Assembly (NCBI RefSeq): GCF_016019885.1
Contig: NZ_JAEANY010000003.1
Span: 62,001-126,000 of the forward strand
Origin: Aurantiacibacter sediminis
GTDB lineage: Bacteria; Pseudomonadota; Alphaproteobacteria; Sphingomonadales; Sphingomonadaceae
Length of the DNA: 64,000 nucleotides
Reading direction: 5' to 3'
Shown here in pieces: positions 19,383 through 56,388 of the stretch. The translations under genes were made by a program, and so were the position numbers. Position 1 is the first letter of the stretch, and each line of letters starts with the position of its first letter. The notes beneath the pieces are model-generated. The model had not been told where the DNA came from and did not search any database. It worked only from the letters and a program-made list of their open reading frames with translations.

Positions 19383-20440
19383 GCGTCCTTATTGAACAGG
19401 TTGGCCCAACGGCGCTTGTCGCGGGTTTTCCAGTGGCCGCGGTGGTAGGCATCGCTGGCAAGCAGCGGCATGACCGAACCCGCCTCTGCGAACACCATCT
19501 GCTCGATCGCGGTCGAGACCTTACCCCAGCTCGCCGCCTCTTGAAGCGTCGAGGATGAGCAGGCGCCGTCACGCACATCGGCGACGGTGATCTGCACAGC
19601 GTATTTGTGCACCGAGACATCTTCATGGCCGAGGATCTCTGCACAGACGACCGTATCCTGGATGAAGTTCTTGGGCACACCGCCGCCGACCATCAGCAGG
19701 CCGCTTTCGCCGCCTTTGATCTTGATGTCGGTCAGCTCGCGGAAGTCGGCCACTGCGTCGATCATCAGATAAGGCTCGCCCTTCTCCATCTGGTCGACCT
19801 GGTGCTTCACCAGGCCAAACCCGGCGGAGCTGTCCACGAAGGCGGGGCAGAAGATCGGCACGTCATGTTCGTAGGCGAGTTTGACGAGGCTGTTCTCCTT
19901 CTTACCATGCTCGACAAGGTACTTACCCATTTCGCGGATGAACGCGCGGCTGGAATACGGCCCCGGCGGCAGGTCGTTGGCGATCTTGTTGATCGTGAAG
20001 TCGCAATCCTGCAGCTGCTCTTCGTCGATATAGGTGTCGTAAATCCGGTCGATATAGAGCGAACGCAGCGTGTCATCATCGGGCACTTCCAGTGCTTGGT
20101 AGTGCTTGTGTCCAAGCCCTTCGAAGAAGTCCATGTCGACGATCGTTGCGCCCGTCGCCACCACGCAATCGACCATGTTGTTGCGGATCAGCTCCGCATA
20201 CAGATCCATGCAGCCGCCCGCGCTGGTGGAACCGGCGATGACGAGGAAGATGGTGCAATCCTTGTCGGCCAGCATCTGGTTGTAGATGCCGGTCGCATTG
20301 GCGAGATCGCGGCTGGTAAAGCTCATCTTCTTCATCTGGTCAACGATGGGACGCGCGTCGAAGCTGGTGATGTCGATGTGTTCGACCTCGGTGCTCAGCA
20401 GTTCAGCTTTGCGGGTGTCGTTGATGGGCTTGTCATTCAT
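19379..20440 (-). CDS. Deoxyhypusine-synthase-like enzyme, putative homospermidine synthase
   Basis: 353 residues. The family's active-site Lys is present in VGGGVPKNFIQD (Lys257), with an NAD-binding region IAGSTSAGGCMDLYAE (69-84). Bacteria lack the eIF5A partner, and bacterial DHS-like proteins are known or proposed to move an aminobutyl group from one polyamine to another, giving homospermidine or related products. Sphingomonads contain homospermidine, and an ornithine decarboxylase lies 2 kb away, so I favour this role (inference). Start ATG 20440 has AGGAG 10 bases upstream, better than the upstream frame start at 20473. An EcfG-type promoter precedes it. Confidence 0.85.
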   Translation of the reverse strand: MNDKPINDTRKAELLSTEVEHIDITSFDARPIVDQMKKMSFTSRDLANATGIYNQMLADKDCTIFLVIAGSTSAGGCMDLYAELIRNNMVDCVVATGATIVDMDFFEGLGHKHYQALEVPDDDTLRSLYIDRIYDTYIDEEQLQDCDFTINKIANDLPPGPYSSRAFIREMGKYLVEHGKKENSLVKLAYEHDVPIFCPAFVDSSAGFGLVKHQVDQMEKGEPYLMIDAVADFRELTDIKIKGGESGLLMVGGGVPKNFIQDTVVCAEILGHEDVSVHKYAVQITVADVRDGACSSSTLQEAASWGKVSTAIEQMVFAEAGSVMPLLASDAYHRGHWKTRDKRRWANLFNKDA

Positions 20441-49834: not shown

Positions 49835-51003
49835 GCGCCGAGGTCATTTCGCTGGGCTGCCGCCTCAATATCGCCGAGAGCGAGCGTATTCGCGACATGA
49901 TGTCGGGCGAAGACGATGTCGTCGTCGTCAATAGCTGCGCGGTGACCATGGAGGCTGTCCGCCAGACCCGGCAGGCCATTCGCCGCGCGCGCAAGGCTCG
50001 GCCCGATGCGCGGCTGCTGGTGACAGGCTGCGCCGCCGATATCGAGCGCGAGCAGCTGGCCGCCATGCCCGAAGTCGATGGGCTGGTGCCGAACACCCAA
50101 AAGCTCGATGCACGCGCATGGAACGTGCCCGAACGCGCCGAGCCTGCACCCAAACAGCGCACCCGCGCCTTTATTGCGGTGCAGAATGGCTGCGATCATG
50201 CCTGCACCTTCTGCGTAATCCCGCAGGGCCGTGGTGCAAGCCGCTCCATGACCATCCCCGCCGTGCTGCGCGAAGTGGAGCGGCATCTCGAACAGGGCGC
50301 GCCCGAAATCGTGCTGACGGGTGTCGATGTGACGTCATGGGGCCATGACCTCCCCGGCACGCCGCCGCTCGGCGATCTGGTTGCCGCCGTGCTGGACGCA
50401 TTCCCGGATTTGCGACGCCTGCGCATGTCCTCGATCGACGGGGCCGAAGTCGATTCCAGGCTGTTCCATCTCTTCGCGAGCGAGCCGCGCGTGATGCCGC
50501 ATCTGCATCTCTCGCTACAGCATGGTGCCGATCTCATTCTCAAACGCATGAAGCGCCGCCATTCACGCGCCGATGCTCTGGTGCTTGTCAGCGGCTTGCG
50601 GGAGCGCCGCCCCGAACTGGTCATGGGGGCCGATATCATCGCCGGCTTCCCGACTGAATCGGAAGCGCATCACGCCGATAATCTCAGCATCATCCGCGAG
50701 CTGCGGATTGTGCACGGCCATATCTTCCCATATTCACCGCGTCCCAACACGCCTGCGGCGCGCATGCCGCAGCTGGACAAGGGCCTGATCAAGGAGCGTG
50801 CGGCCGAACTGCGCGCGGCTGTTGGCGCAGTTCGCAATGAGTTTCTGGAAAGCCTTGTAGGCACTCCGCTCAGCGTCCTCGCCGAACGCGACGGCTGCGG
50901 CTATGCCGAAAACTTCGCCCGCGTCGCTTTGCCCGCGAGCACCGAAGCGGGCACAATCGCGACCATCACTCCGCAATCAATCGAGGAAGGCATTCTCACG
51001 TGA
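49831..51003 (+). CDS. mtaB: tRNA methylthiotransferase MtaB
   Basis: Radical-SAM enzyme that adds a methylthio group to N6-threonylcarbamoyladenosine-37 of tRNA. 390 residues. The N-terminal cluster Cys are in SLGCRLN, NSCAVT and VTGCAA; the radical-SAM motif CDHACTFCVIPQGRG is complete near residue 123. A TRAM-like end is short. ATG 49831 overlaps dapF by four bases; the much longer frame from 49615 is antisense-like extension. It overlaps ftsY by GTGA. Confidence 0.93.
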   Translation: MSAEVISLGCRLNIAESERIRDMMSGEDDVVVVNSCAVTMEAVRQTRQAIRRARKARPDARLLVTGCAADIEREQLAAMPEVDGLVPNTQKLDARAWNVPERAEPAPKQRTRAFIAVQNGCDHACTFCVIPQGRGASRSMTIPAVLREVERHLEQGAPEIVLTGVDVTSWGHDLPGTPPLGDLVAAVLDAFPDLRRLRMSSIDGAEVDSRLFHLFASEPRVMPHLHLSLQHGADLILKRMKRRHSRADALVLVSGLRERRPELVMGADIIAGFPTESEAHHADNLSIIRELRIVHGHIFPYSPRPNTPAARMPQLDKGLIKERAAELRAAVGAVRNEFLESLVGTPLSVLAERDGCGYAENFARVALPASTEAGTIATITPQSIEEGILT

Positions 51004-52145
51004 GCAAAAGCTGGACGGAAAAACTGTTTGGCGGTTTCCGCAAGACATCAGACCGCTTATCGGAGAATTTGTCAGCCGCCGTCGAGTCCGCCGAACCTGT
51101 TGTCGAGGATGAGGAGGTCGAGGAGGAGCCGGACACTGACCTTGAGCCGGAACCGGAACCCGAACCAACGCCAGAGCCCGATCCACTGCATGAAGCTGAG
51201 CCGGAGGTCTCGCCCGAACCTGCCTCAGCACCTGCTCCTCAGCCTGAACCCACGCCGGCAGCTTCCGCAGAGCCCGCTTCGATCGTTTCAAAGGTCGCAA
51301 CGACGATCCGTTCCACCCGGCTCGACGATACAACGCTCGACGAGATCGAAGATGCGCTAATTATTTCGGACCTCGGCCCGTCCGCCGCAGCGCGCATTCG
51401 CGACAAGCTCGCGGAGAAGCGCTTTGGCTCGGTCATTACGGAGCGCGAACTGAAAGAGGCCGTTGCCGACGAAATCGCCGCGATCCTGCGGCCCGTCGCC
51501 AAGCCGCTCGATATCACTGCCTTCCCCCGCCCGCAGGTCATCCTGGTCATCGGCGTGAATGGCAGCGGCAAGACCACCACCATCGCGAAACTCGGCCATT
51601 GGCTGATGGAAGACGATTACGAGGTGATGCTGGCAGCGGGCGACACTTTCCGCGCGGCAGCCATCGGCCAGCTCAAAATCTGGGCAGAGCGTATCGGTGC
51701 GCCGATCATGACCGGGCCGGAGGGCGGCGATCCCTCCGCCATCGTATTCGACGCAGTAAAGCGCGCGACCGAAATCGGTACCGATGCGCTAATTGTCGAC
51801 ACGGCAGGCCGCCTTCAGAACAAACGCGAGCTGATGGATGAGCTGGCGAAGATCCGCAAAGTGCTCGGCCGGCTGAACCCGGAGGCTCCGCACGACGTGC
51901 TGCTCGTGCTCGATGCGACGAACGGCCAGAACGCACTCAGCCAGATCGAGATTTTCAAGGAAGTCGCAGGCGTTACCGGCCTCATCATGACGAAGCTCGA
52001 CGGCACAGCGCGCGGCGGCGTGCTGGTCGCGGCGGCCGAGCAATATGGCCTGCCGATCCACGCCATCGGCGTTGGCGAAACGCTCGACGATTTGCGGCCT
52101 TTCGATCCAGACCTTGTGGCGCGCGTGATTGCAGGAGTGGCCTGA
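51000..52145 (+). CDS. ftsY: Signal recognition particle receptor FtsY
   Basis: GTPase that docks SRP-ribosome complexes at the membrane. 381 residues from a GTG start overlapping mtaB. The N-terminal A domain (about 25-95) is Glu/Pro-rich, a run of acidic PEPE-type repeats. The NG domain has GVNGSGKTTTIAKL (G1), DTAGRLQNKRELMDEL, and TKLDGTARGG. All GTPase motifs are intact. The next gene starts with the last base of the stop codon (TGATG). Confidence 0.96.
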   Translation: MSKSWTEKLFGGFRKTSDRLSENLSAAVESAEPVVEDEEVEEEPDTDLEPEPEPEPTPEPDPLHEAEPEVSPEPASAPAPQPEPTPAASAEPASIVSKVATTIRSTRLDDTTLDEIEDALIISDLGPSAAARIRDKLAEKRFGSVITERELKEAVADEIAAILRPVAKPLDITAFPRPQVILVIGVNGSGKTTTIAKLGHWLMEDDYEVMLAAGDTFRAAAIGQLKIWAERIGAPIMTGPEGGDPSAIVFDAVKRATEIGTDALIVDTAGRLQNKRELMDELAKIRKVLGRLNPEAPHDVLLVLDATNGQNALSQIEIFKEVAGVTGLIMTKLDGTARGGVLVAAAEQYGLPIHAIGVGETLDDLRPFDPDLVARVIAGVA

Positions 52146-52810
52146 TGACAGCAGAAACCCCGCAGCAAGCCGTCGCAAGCGAAAAGCCGAAAAGCGGCTG
52201 GCTCAATGTCGCAGTCGATTACGGGCCGCTGCTCGTATTTTTCCTGACTTACAAATTCTATTCGCCCGAAGACGGCACGGACACGGCAGCCGAAATCTTC
52301 GCCGTCATTCGCGGCACCGGCGCATTTATCGTCGCTGCCGTCATCGCGCTTGCAGTGAGCAAATGGCGGCTCGGCAAAGTCAGCCCGATGTTGTGGCTAT
52401 CGACAGCCATGATCGTGGGCTTCGGCGCGCTGACGATCTATTTCCAGGACGAACGCTTCATCCAGTGGAAGCCGACGATCATCTACGGGATTTTCGCCGT
52501 CGTGCTGCTGGTTGGTTATGCCAATGGCAAATCGCTGCTGAAGATCTTGCTGGAAGCCGCCTTCGAAGGCTTGAACGATGAAGGATGGCTCAAGCTTTCT
52601 CGCAATTGGGGCTTTTTTTTCATAGTGCTGGGCGCGCTGAATACGGTGCTTATTTTCGCAGTGAGCTTCGAAACGTGGCTCGGCATGAAGTTGTGGCTAT
52701 TCCTGCCGCTGACATTCGTCTTCACCTTCACGCAGGTGCCGATGCTGATGAAGCATGGTTTGAATGTGGAAGAGAACGACCCGTGCGACGACACGCCTCC
52801 ACCGGGCTGA
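52145..52810 (+). CDS. Septation/inner-membrane protein, YciB/IspZ family
   Basis: 221 residues with about six membrane segments. Family marks: NVAVDYGPLLVFFLTYKFY near the start, and IQWKPTIIYGIFAVVLL. YciB-like proteins affect envelope and septation in enterobacteria; their biochemical role is unclear. It overlaps ftsY by one base (TGATG), so it is translated from the dapF-mtaB-ftsY transcript. The end is a 25-residue acidic tail (EENDPCDDTPPPG). Confidence 0.88.
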   Translation: MTAETPQQAVASEKPKSGWLNVAVDYGPLLVFFLTYKFYSPEDGTDTAAEIFAVIRGTGAFIVAAVIALAVSKWRLGKVSPMLWLSTAMIVGFGALTIYFQDERFIQWKPTIIYGIFAVVLLVGYANGKSLLKILLEAAFEGLNDEGWLKLSRNWGFFFIVLGALNTVLIFAVSFETWLGMKLWLFLPLTFVFTFTQVPMLMKHGLNVEENDPCDDTPPPG

Positions 52811-52812
52811 AT

Positions 52813-52840
52813 TTGACGAATTGCACCAATGGTGTATTAG
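52813..52840 (+). promoter_or_regulatory. Promoter with operator-like palindrome in the spacer
   Basis: TTGACG (52813-52818), 16 bases, TATTAG (52835-52840). The spacer holds CACCAATGGTG (52824-52834), an 11-base inverted repeat. The predicted transcription start falls at about 52846, inside the 5' arm of a large hairpin. It would drive the coiled-coil gene at 52988. Confidence 0.5.
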
Positions 52841-52843
52841 AGC

Positions 52844-52899
52844 ATCAACACGGCGAGAGAGCGACGGTTTCAGCACCTCTGCTCCCTCGCTGTGTTGAT
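52844..52899 (+). ncRNA. Large near-perfect hairpin, leader or small RNA candidate
   Basis: ATCAACAC (52844-52851) pairs with GTGTTGAT (52892-52899), and the pairing continues inward through a G-T wobble, GCGAG/CTCGC, one mismatch and GAG/CTC, giving about 17 of 18 pairs with a 20-base loop. It starts near the predicted start of transcription, 88 bases before the next gene. No T-run follows, so it is not a normal terminator. Confidence 0.4.
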
Positions 52900-52987
52900 T
52901 CACAATCACAGCAGCATCCAAGCGAGCCAGTAGTCATTCTGCGCTCGTCGCGCTGTGTCGTCTGCATCTTTCAGTCAGGAGTTGGTT

Positions 52988-53281
52988 ATGAGCCAATCGG
53001 GAATACATATCGGCGACGTCCGCAAGCTTTTACATCGAGTGGTCGATGACTGGCGCCTCATAGAGCGCAAGGCAGTCCGAGACAGGCTGAGGGATTGCGA
53101 AGATCGGCTTGAGAAGCTGGAGTATCGGAGGGCTCAGTCCGGCACAGCCGACATGAAGGCGCGTCTGATAGAACAACGCGATCGATTCAGGAGCCGAATC
53201 GACGCCAGAAATGAGATGCTCGATGAGGCGCACAGGCAAATGGCCGAATTCATCGACAACAGCGAGGCCAACGCAAATTAG
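52988..53281 (+). CDS. Small coiled-coil protein of unknown function
   Basis: 97 residues, rich in Arg, Glu and Asp with heptad-like spacing (RDRLRDCEDRLEKLEYRR and RLIEQRDRFRSRIDARNEM), so probably a helical coiled coil. ATG 52988 has AGGAG 7 bases upstream; the longer GTG frame from 52955 is less likely. No family named. It is preceded by a promoter with an internal palindrome and a large leader hairpin, and is followed by the convergent kup gene 9 bases away. Confidence 0.65.
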   Translation: MSQSGIHIGDVRKLLHRVVDDWRLIERKAVRDRLRDCEDRLEKLEYRRAQSGTADMKARLIEQRDRFRSRIDARNEMLDEAHRQMAEFIDNSEANAN

Positions 53282-53290
53282 CGCTTACGC

Positions 53291-55183
53291 CTAAATCTCC
53301 ACCTGGCTCCCCAGCTCGACCACACGGTTGGTGGGGAGCCGGAAGAATTCCATCGGCGTGGCTGCGTTGCGCATCATCCATGCGAACAGCTTCTCTCGCC
53401 ACACGGCCATGCCGGGCTTGTCTGCAGTCAGCAGTGTCTGGCGGCTGAGGAAAAAGCTGGTCTTCATCATATTGAACGGACCGCCGCACATCTCTCGGCT
53501 GGCGAGCGCTTTGGGCACGTCGGTCTCTTCCATGAAGCCATAATGCAGGATGACGCGGAAGAAGCCATCGCCGAGTTCCATGATCTCGCATCGCTCCGAC
53601 GGGTCGACATAGGGAACGTCCGCGATATCGACTGTCAGCACCACTATGCGTTCATGCAGCACCTTATTGTGCTTGATATTGTGAAGCAGCGCAGAGGGTG
53701 TGCCACTGCTGCCCGAATTCATAAAGATCGCCGTGCCTTCGACCCGCGCACTGCTGGACCGCGCGGATTTGGCAAAGATATCGAGCGGCAAGCTCATTTC
53801 CGTCATGCGTTCGCGCATGAGCTTGCGGCCTTTCGCCCATGTGGTGAGAATGGTGAAGGCAATCGCGCCCACCAGTAGCGGGAACCAGCCGCCATCGGGC
53901 ACCTTGGTGAGGTTGGCCGCGAAATAGGCGCCGTCGACAATCAGGAAGACCAGCACCACCGGGATAGCGATCCACTTTGGCCATTTCCAAACGCCGATAA
54001 AGAGCACCGCCATCAGCAAAGTGTCAATGGTGACTGCGCCCGTCACCGCGATCCCATAGGCGCTGGCGAGGTTGGACGAGTTCTGGAACGTCAGGACAAG
54101 GATGATGACCGCAACCATCAGCGCCCAATTGATCACCGGGATATAGATCTGGCCGGAATGCTCGTCCGAAGTGTGGCGGATGGAAAGGCGCGGCACGAAG
54201 CCCAGCTGGATCGCCTGGTGCGTAATGCTGAACGCGCCGGAAATAACCGCCTGGCTGGCGATAAAGGTCGCGCAGGTGGCGAGGATCACCAGCGGCAGGC
54301 GATAAGCCTCATCCGCCAGGAAGAAGAACGGGTTCATGATCGCCTGCTCGGCCGCTTCGGTCGGCAGGCCCATGATCATCGCGCCCTGGCCGAAATAGTT
54401 CAGCAGCAGGCACGGCATGACAAAGCCGAACCAGCTCAGCTTCATCGGGCCGCGACCGAAATGACCCATATCTGAATACAGCGCCTCGGCGCCCGTCACC
54501 GCCAGCACGACCGAGCCGAGCGCGAGGAAAGCAAACCATTTGTCGGTGATGAAAAACTGGATCGCGTACCACGGGTTCAGCGCCCAGAGGATTTCCGGAG
54601 TGTTGAAAATCTGGCCGATGCCCAGCACCGCAATCACTGTGAAATAGATAATCATCACAGGCGCGAACAGCGCGCCCACCTTTGCCGTGCCGCGCTGCTG
54701 CAACACGAACAGGCAGACGAGCAGAACAAGCGCGATGGGAATGACATACGGCTGCAGGCCCTGGTCCACCACCGTCAGCCCTTCCACCGCAGACAGCACC
54801 GAAATGGCGGGCGTAATCATGCTGTCGCCGTAGAAAAGCGCCGTCGCGAAAACGCCAAGCAACACAATCAGCCAGCCATATTTGGTCTTGCCGATATTGC
54901 GGGAAAGCAGTGCCACCAGCGCAAGGCTGCCGCCCTGCCCGTTATTATCGGCGCGCATCAGGATGGAGACATATTGGATCGCCACCACCAGCGTCATGGA
55001 CCAGAAGATTAGGCTGACAACGCCAAGAATGTGCAGATCGTCAATCGGCAGCGTGTGCGCGCCGCGGAACGTCTCGCGAAAGGCGTAAAGCGGGCTGGTG
55101 CCGATATCGCCGAAAACGATACCGATCGCGCCGGCAGCAAGCTTCAGCTTGGCGGAATCGGTTTTATTCTCGGTTTGGCTCAT
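53291..55183 (-). CDS. kup: Low-affinity potassium transporter Kup
   Basis: 630 residues with about 12 membrane segments and a C-terminal soluble part. N-terminal [19 protein letters not shown] is the Kup family signature, with [18 protein letters not shown] and later TAFNSS-type loops. Transports K+ with protons. Standalone gene with its own start; the ccm operon lies upstream on the same strand but ends 117 bases before kup. Confidence 0.95.
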
Positions 55184-55300
55184 ATGGATTCAGGCCTGAT
55201 CAACGGCTTTTGCCCAATGTGACTTTTCGCCCCCGTCCGGCGAAGCGCGCCCACTAGCAGCGTGTGGCGAGCGCGGCAATGCTGCGGCGCATATATGTCC

Positions 55301-55966
55301 CTATTCCGTCGGCGGCGCAGAATGCTGCGCGGGCAATCCGCCCATCGCGCCGAGCATGCCGTCAATGCGTTCAAGCCGCTCACCCAGAGCCGCGCGGCCG
55401 GGCGCACCTTCCGGCGCAGCATCATAAGCACCGCGCCAGATTTGCTGTGCTTCTGCCAAACGTCCCTGCCGAACCAGTGACACACCAAGGAAATAGCTGG
55501 GCGCGACATGGTCGGGCTTCACCATGCGAGCCTGGTTGTAAGCGTAGAGCGCAGGGGCGGTCAGCACGCCATCGGCATGCTCGGCCAGCGCATTCCCCAG
55601 TGCAATCCACGCTTCGAAATCACCGGCATTGGCGCTGGTGATGCCGGAAAGGATTGTCGCTGCCTCGCTATAGCGTCCGCGCGCCGCATAAGCGTCTGCC
55701 TGGTACATGGCATCGGCCCGGCTGCGCTCATTATCGCCGATAAATTCGCGGCGCGCGCCGACAATATCATATTGCCCCGCATCCGGCCCCGCAGCGGCCT
55801 CTTTCGGTGCTGAAGCCATGTCGGGGCTCGCTTGAACAGCATAGCCGACCAGACCGAAAGTGAGCGCTGCGGCAAGGCTTGCCCAGACCGACCTGCCAGG
55901 GCGAAAAATCAGAACCGCCAAAGCAAAGCAAATGACAGCGAGCGCGATCGCAGTGACCCAGGTCAT
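55301..55966 (-). CDS. ccmI: TPR protein, short CcmI-like cytochrome c maturation factor
   Basis: 221 residues. Two N-terminal membrane segments (ALAVICFALAVLIF and SLAAALTFGLVGYAV), then TPR-like repeats (ADAMYQADAYAARGRYSEAATIL and YFLGVSLVRQGRLAEAQQIW). CcmI chaperones apocytochrome c; full-length forms have about 400 residues, so this is a short version. Start ATG 55966 overlaps the ccmH stop by four bases. It is the last gene of the ccm operon. Confidence 0.8.
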   Translation of the reverse strand: MTWVTAIALAVICFALAVLIFRPGRSVWASLAAALTFGLVGYAVQASPDMASAPKEAAAGPDAGQYDIVGARREFIGDNERSRADAMYQADAYAARGRYSEAATILSGITSANAGDFEAWIALGNALAEHADGVLTAPALYAYNQARMVKPDHVAPSYFLGVSLVRQGRLAEAQQIWRGAYDAAPEGAPGRAALGERLERIDGMLGAMGGLPAQHSAPPTE

Positions 55967-56388
55967 GCGCGCGCCTTCCCGACCCGGCGCACGAGTACCG
56001 CAATGGCGATGAGGACGAGTAGGCCCGGCAGGACGAATAACGGCCAAGTCGTGGCGCTAATTTCCGGCTCATAACTGATATAATCGCCATAGCGCGAAAT
56101 CAGATAGGCGCGGACTTCCTCCGGGCTTTCTCCGCCGGCAAGGCGCGTGCGGACCTGGTGTCGCATATCGCCTGCCACGGGCGCATCGCTATCGGCGATG
56201 GACTGGCTCTGGCACTGCAGGCAGCGCAGCGTATACATCAACTCGCGCGCGGTCTCCTCCAGTTCGGGATCATCGAGCTGGGTATAGGCATAGGGCGCAG
56301 GCGGCATGTTGGACTGCGCGGCGAGTGGTGAGGCCATGCCAGAGAGAGTCAAGATTACGAATGCGAATAGCTGCGCAATGCGTTTCAC
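55963..56388 (-). CDS. ccmH: Cytochrome c maturation protein CcmH
   Basis: Periplasmic membrane-anchored thioredoxin-like protein that reduces apocytochrome c for heme attachment. 141 residues: signal peptide, then the redox motif LRCLQCQSQSIADSDAP near residue 53, then one C-terminal membrane segment (WPLFVLPGLLVLIAIAVLV). It overlaps ccmI and ccmG by four bases on either side. All residues expected for CcmH are intact. Confidence 0.95.
   Translation of the reverse strand: MKRIAQLFAFVILTLSGMASPLAAQSNMPPAPYAYTQLDDPELEETARELMYTLRCLQCQSQSIADSDAPVAGDMRHQVRTRLAGGESPEEVRAYLISRYGDYISYEPEISATTWPLFVLPGLLVLIAIAVLVRRVGKARA

Follow-up and report, generated by a model that had tools for sequence, protein, structure and literature searches.

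Between yciB and kup in Aurantiacibacter sediminis lies a small orphan gene that appears to have its own promoter and a structured leader, and on balance we think that the 5'-terminal stem of this leader probably prolongs the life of the mRNA. The gene lies in a 64,000-nucleotide stretch of DNA, the window, which belongs to a 2.67-Mb genome (Table 1). RppH and RNase E, which start mRNA decay at the 5' end, require that end to be single-stranded. We propose that transcription from a housekeeping-type promoter, placed right after the yciB stop codon, would start at the foot of an inverted repeat; the first bases of the mRNA would then be paired within a stem, leaving hardly any single-stranded stretch at its 5' end. 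Such a stem would hinder RppH or RNase E and give the mRNA a longer life, which in turn would keep the small protein expressed at a high or steady level. Judged by sequence comparison, the architecture (promoter geometry, pairing, position in four genomes, and a coding open reading frame [ORF]) is well supported; transcription itself, its exact start site, and an effect of the stem on RNA stability are inferred.

Table 1. Features of the yciB-kup region (positions in the window)
Feature	Position	Strand	Evidence or remark
yciB/ispZ (intracellular septation protein A)	52145..52810	+	Pfam PF04279, E 7.2e-53
-35 hexamer TTGACG	52813..52818	+	Seen in 4/4 carriers; TTGACA in three relatives
CACCAATGGTG palindrome inside spacer	52824..52834	.	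Judged incidental; missing from three other spacers
-10 hexamer TATTAG	52835..52840	+	Relatives: TATTAT, TATTCT, TATTAT; spacer 16 nt in 4/4
P1, 5'-terminal hairpin	52844..52899	+	Folds, pair conservation, uninterrupted-stem counts
Predicted transcription start (first A of AACACGG)	52847	+	7th base past -10 hexamer; same place in 4/4 leaders
P2/P3, second predicted leader hairpin	52907..52957	+	Fold and pair changes in 3-sequence alignment
Shine-Dalgarno CAGGAG	52976..52981	+	Identical across four genomes
97-aa orphan protein, two predicted long helices	52988..53281	+	Homologues, codon-position pattern, AlphaFold2
kup K+ transporter, convergent, closes slot	53291..55183	-	Pfam PF02705/PF22776

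The initial annotation had proposed a promoter, TTGACG-N16-TATTAG, whose sequence is confirmed and which gains support from conservation. In the window, the -35 hexamer begins 2 bases past the yciB stop codon and the 16-nt spacer spans 52819-52834; all four genomes that carry the gene have TTGAC[A/G], exactly 16 bases, and TATTnn, beginning 2 to 4 nt past the yciB stop, and all four leaders have AA[C/T]ACG at the predicted +1, 7 bases on from the -10 hexamer. Each carrier thus has near-consensus hexamers at the 16- to 18-nt spacing of σ70-type promoters, and all three relatives match the σ70 consensus better than the window does; from its sequence, the promoter is best read as one of the vegetative, or housekeeping, type. 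Genome-wide, TTGAC-N17-TATT occurs four times, compared to three for the reversed control, so the window match alone is not beyond chance; the promoter is credible because it is conserved in four genomes. Near the +1 of the other three genomic matches, no uninterrupted stem exceeds 5 bp. A σ70 scan of positions 50000-56000 reported no promoter: it requires T as the last -10 base, and hence the window copy (TATTAG) went unreported.

An operator had also been placed inside the spacer, and here the comparison went the other way. The window spacer does contain CACCAATGGTG, an 11-nt palindrome, but it is in none of the three relatives, and no comparable inverted repeat lies in their spacers. Inverted repeats with 5-bp arms and a loop of 0 to 3 are held by 2.7% of the window's 63,984 16-mers, and CACCAATGGTG was matched in 8 of 61 loci compared, all eight from the window's own genome. 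Given its absence from the relatives and the frequency of comparable palindromes, we rejected CACCAATGGTG as a conserved operator.

Hairpin P1 is 56 nt long and begins 3 bases before the predicted start. Its RNA fold has 23 pairs in the hairpin, and the stem called by RNAalifold has 18 pairs (52845-52898), 17 of which form in the window, one as G-U; the latter count bears out the earlier description of a 56-base hairpin with about 17 of 18 pairs at the predicted start. The predicted window mRNA folds from +1 with P1 intact, and its first 50 nt reach -27.8 kcal/mol (z = -5.3), as low as none of 1,000 dinucleotide shuffles. Corresponding segments from +1 reach -31.3 kcal/mol in G023 (z = -7.1), -15.7 kcal/mol in G626 (z = -2.9), and -11.0 kcal/mol in G022 (z = -0.5; 290 of 1,000 shuffles as low). 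Stem strength is uneven: strong in two genomes, moderate in one, and at shuffle level in G022, which has lost most inner pairs and whose whole-leader minimum-energy fold lacks P1 unless constrained. The inner stem is also lost in G626. Among overlapping 60-nt segments of the window (63,942, both strands), 42 fold better than the P1 plus strand; as a place, P1 ranks fourth, by its minus strand.

The stem foot falls at -3 to 0 of the predicted +1 in all four genomes, although the longest uninterrupted run there in G022 is only 3 bp. With the foot at -3 to -1, the uninterrupted stem measures 14 bp in the window, 17 bp in G023, and 8 bp in G626. At 20,000 random positions, stems of at least 8 bp occurred at 0.66%, of at least 11 bp at 0.03%, and of at least 12 bp at none; this control covered a narrower span (38-52) than the one in which the carriers' stems were sought (30-60).

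Over the four genomes, the outer 7-bp stem is paired in 27 of 28 cells, and in two of its pairs both partners differ: C-G is replaced by U-A in G023 and G626, and G-C by A-U in G022. Slid registers of the same stem are 29 to 54% paired. The shuffle control for this stem is only suggestive or neutral: of 500 shuffles, 27 reached the observed values for paired cells and for covariation score, 101 reached the count of pairs altered in both partners, and 414 reached the count of further pair types. Across the leader of three genomes, both partners differ in 7 of 30 pairs, a number matched by 5 of 500 shuffles. On independent variation of the two arms in relatives, raised earlier as a sign against the hairpin, the result is mixed: the outer seven pairs are kept or vary in concert, which speaks for the hairpin, and two of the four genomes have lost part of the inner stem, which speaks against it. 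In the sequences compared, pairing near the predicted 5' end is conserved; the strength of pairing is not. Measured from +1, the hairpin is 50, 48, 48, and 43 nt long in the four genomes. Since these lengths differ from the window's by 2, 2, and 7 nt, which are not multiples of three, we rejected coding as the explanation of the hairpin; an RNA hairpin tolerates such variation.

P2/P3, predicted in the consensus of three leaders, is suggestive of a real second structure. Three of the 10 P3 pairs changed on both sides, and G626 has a differently built hairpin at the same place. Taken whole, the leader after P1 offers weak evidence, with z scores of -1.0, -0.3, -2.7, and -1.4; the window value does not stand out from shuffles (153 of 1,000 as low), and in G022 the Shine-Dalgarno is paired instead in the minimum-energy fold.

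Of 40 genomes of the genus, three have the 97-aa ORF: the window genome and 2 of the 39 others (G022 and G023), all three belonging to the 33 with a completeness of 90% or more. A search with the window leader as DNA matched in the same three genomes, and an RNA model built from three leaders found these and none further; yciB is present in 37 of the 40, so the slot exists while the cassette is mostly missing. Searching 396 genomes of the order returned the same three and one more, G626, which belongs to a different genus of the family and is the sole carrier there (1 of 114). A 4-row profile run against 391 relatives of G626 yielded 12 hits, 11 of which (E 1.3e-4 to 9.6e-4, in open frames of 189 to 433 aa) were not counted as members. 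Samples of the family (397 genomes; protein and RNA model searches) returned only G000 and G022; the RNA model run excluded G626, whose leader was read by eye and folded. A scan of genome contigs gave one relative, the D1-12 record, which is apparently the same genome as G023. The protein was absent from the plasmid and phage records searched for a mobile origin, the leader plus ORF had no match in them, and the viral contigs searched held no relative.

All four carriers, G626 included, have the gene between yciB and kup, and beyond the window's 97-aa ORF kup lies in convergent orientation; in G022, an extra open frame intervenes between the small ORF and kup. This frame (locus L044) has 453 codons and, judged by eye, resembles an amino-acid permease. 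In an FtsY-YciB tree of 31 rows, made up of G626 and 30 of the 37 yciB loci, the carriers within the genus, three in number, form a clade with support of 98/98. This placement means that presence needs two changes, one for the clade and one for G626; from these sequences, gain, loss, and exchange of the cassette cannot be told apart on the tree. The carriers total only four sequences, three of them from one clade.

Some further observations concern the slot itself. Over the 30 loci shown (L008-L037), the yciB-kup gap (window 52811-53290) is a variable slot in the genus, nearly empty in L027 and L029 and filled with other sequence in others. GTGTCAACTT[C/T]G motifs recur in the gap, downstream of yciB, in L018, L028, L032, and L035. 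An inverted repeat, GGCTCCCCA...TGGGGAGCC, lies at window positions 53305-53340 and overlaps the kup 3' end; G022 has a similar repeat after the small ORF, although its kup is more than 1 kb further away. The repeat is possibly a shared terminator-like element.

The small downstream gene noted earlier is supported: its product is 97 aa long and predicted to be helical, and its ORF is preceded by a Shine-Dalgarno. Homologues of the protein are 70, 51, and 41% identical, and third codon positions account for 50 of 87, 65 of 127, and 56 of 108 differences between homologues. Comparison of the ORF between window and G023 gives pS of 0.81 and pN of 0.17; this excess, together with the third-position pattern, argues that the ORF is a real gene under purifying selection. 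Between window and G022, pN is 0.31 for the ORF versus 0.03 for yciB, and pS is 0.95 versus 0.50; a rate so much faster than that of yciB fits rapid evolution or exchange of divergent alleles. AlphaFold2, given three sequences, predicts two long helices (best model pLDDT 80.8; three of five models below 60). The window protein has no Pfam or NCBIfam family above the curated cutoff and no PHROG better than E 0.057. The family scans took in three homologues, among which the best weak matches were Pfam DUF3502 (E 0.0013) and PHROG 10749 (E 0.026); NCBIfam RevA matched weakly at E 0.0026, with the window protein at 17.7 bits against a cutoff of 65. The sll1863 family stress-response protein (NF052504) was a weak match in two of the three homologues scanned (best E 0.0045), but the window protein scores 13.7 bits, far below the cutoff of 35, and is not a member on these scores. 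All four weak matches (DUF3502, RevA, sll1863, and PHROG 10749) look like chance matches to a coiled coil.

Such a protein might itself act on the leader. In an autoregulatory arrangement, the small helical protein, or another RNA-binding protein, would bind P1 and/or P2/P3 and control its own translation or stability. The two-hairpin layout and the two-helix model are consistent with this, as is the finding of leader and ORF only together, the ORF, DNA, and RNA model searches having returned the same three of 40 genus genomes. However, the lack of a family assignment for the window protein in Pfam, NCBIfam, and PHROG argues against it, as does the fold search, in which 0 of 365 matches had E ≤0.001 and the matches were generic helical hairpins; moreover, the P1 loop sequence shows no conservation. 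We consider autoregulation unlikely. A bolder form, to which we give somewhat less credence still, would make leader and orphan protein a self-contained cassette that evolves far faster than its neighbor yciB: the protein would recognize its own 5' hairpins, and the whole would have been acquired or exchanged as a unit in the yciB-kup slot of at least two genera. If true, this would be a new cis-regulatory RNA/protein pair.

The P1 minus strand folds equally well, so folding alone is no proof of a role as RNA, and the inverted repeat could instead serve a dimeric regulator as its DNA operator, spanning +1 to +50. Equal pairing of the minus strand suits such an operator, as does the half-site AA[C/T]ACG, which is conserved and keeps a constant distance to the promoter. 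On the other hand, the spacing of the half-sites varies by up to 7 nt among the four genomes, which would break helical phase; some changes fall in matched pairs; and stems of 14 to 17 bp in two genomes exceed what a half-site needs. An operator at +1 therefore seems improbable to us.

About equally improbable is a small RNA that consists of P1, or of P1 to P3, and is released from the leader; the ORF would then be a secondary or shared product. Small RNAs derived from untranslated regions (UTRs) are a known kind, and a strong hairpin adjoining a promoter would suit one. Against this suggestion, already made in the initial annotation and still a possible though less likely one, the leader has no terminator-like site, and the same ORF with its Shine-Dalgarno follows in all four genomes. 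Rfam offers no family for it either: at the gathering threshold, a scan of the window returned only two tRNAs elsewhere, and permissive hits began at E 0.87.

We regard an RNA thermometer, or another translation switch that hides the ribosome-binding site, as very improbable. ROSE-type and other RNA thermometers share with this locus a structured leader before one gene. Predicted Shine-Dalgarno pairing is intermediate in three leaders (0.55-0.78 in the window, 0.44-1.0 in G022, and 0.15-0.84 in G023), so the site is not clearly open, and the minimum-energy fold of G022 pairs it with an upstream stretch. In the window, however, the Shine-Dalgarno lies outside P1 and P2/P3, and, unlike in those thermometers, the three-sequence consensus has no conserved helix over it.

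A chance inverted repeat, a dispersed element, or a yciB terminator has next to no claim: by itself, the promoter pattern occurs in the genome about as often as expected by chance, but the repeat is a single copy in the genome, its position and pairing are conserved in four genomes, and no T-run follows the stem. Specifically, the dispersed element considered in the initial annotation (repeat, REP, or MITE) fell away when a search for other copies found one match in the whole genome, the RNA model likewise finding only this place on both strands, and an intrinsic terminator was rejected since neither P1 nor P2 has a terminator-like site.

The predicted start at the stem foot, the ribosome-binding site well downstream, and the lack of a terminator suit a stabilizing stem more than they suit a small RNA, operator, thermometer, or dispersed element. 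Protection of the 5' end, offered earlier as one of several roles, is thus the one we judge most likely, the stem standing at the predicted start in four genomes. We found nothing pertinent on such leaders in this bacterial group in the literature searched, and no description of this orphan gene or leader in Rfam, the protein families, or that literature. While the mechanism itself would hardly surprise a specialist, a stem at the predicted start whose outer pairs are kept through strong divergence offers a natural system in which to test 5'-end-dependent mRNA decay, and the conserved leader indicates that this rapidly evolving orphan gene is real.

The 5'-terminal stem-loops of Escherichia coli ompA and papA are known mRNA stabilizers. 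They resemble the leader described here in having a stem at or near the mRNA 5' end, followed by a stretch with the ribosome-binding site; they differ in that our stem, long in two genomes and weak in another, precedes an orphan gene and has a role that we deduce from its placement. A review (PMC3997798) attributes the long-known stabilization by 5' structures to the reliance of RppH and RNase E on single-stranded 5' ends. Likewise, stem-loops in the 5' UTRs of recA (Acinetobacter) and vacA (Helicobacter) stabilize their mRNAs, according to PMC7509114; these too are leader hairpins before one coding gene, though the genes are unrelated to ours, and the effect is experimental there and inferred here. 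The class of mechanism is already known; the orphan gene is new.
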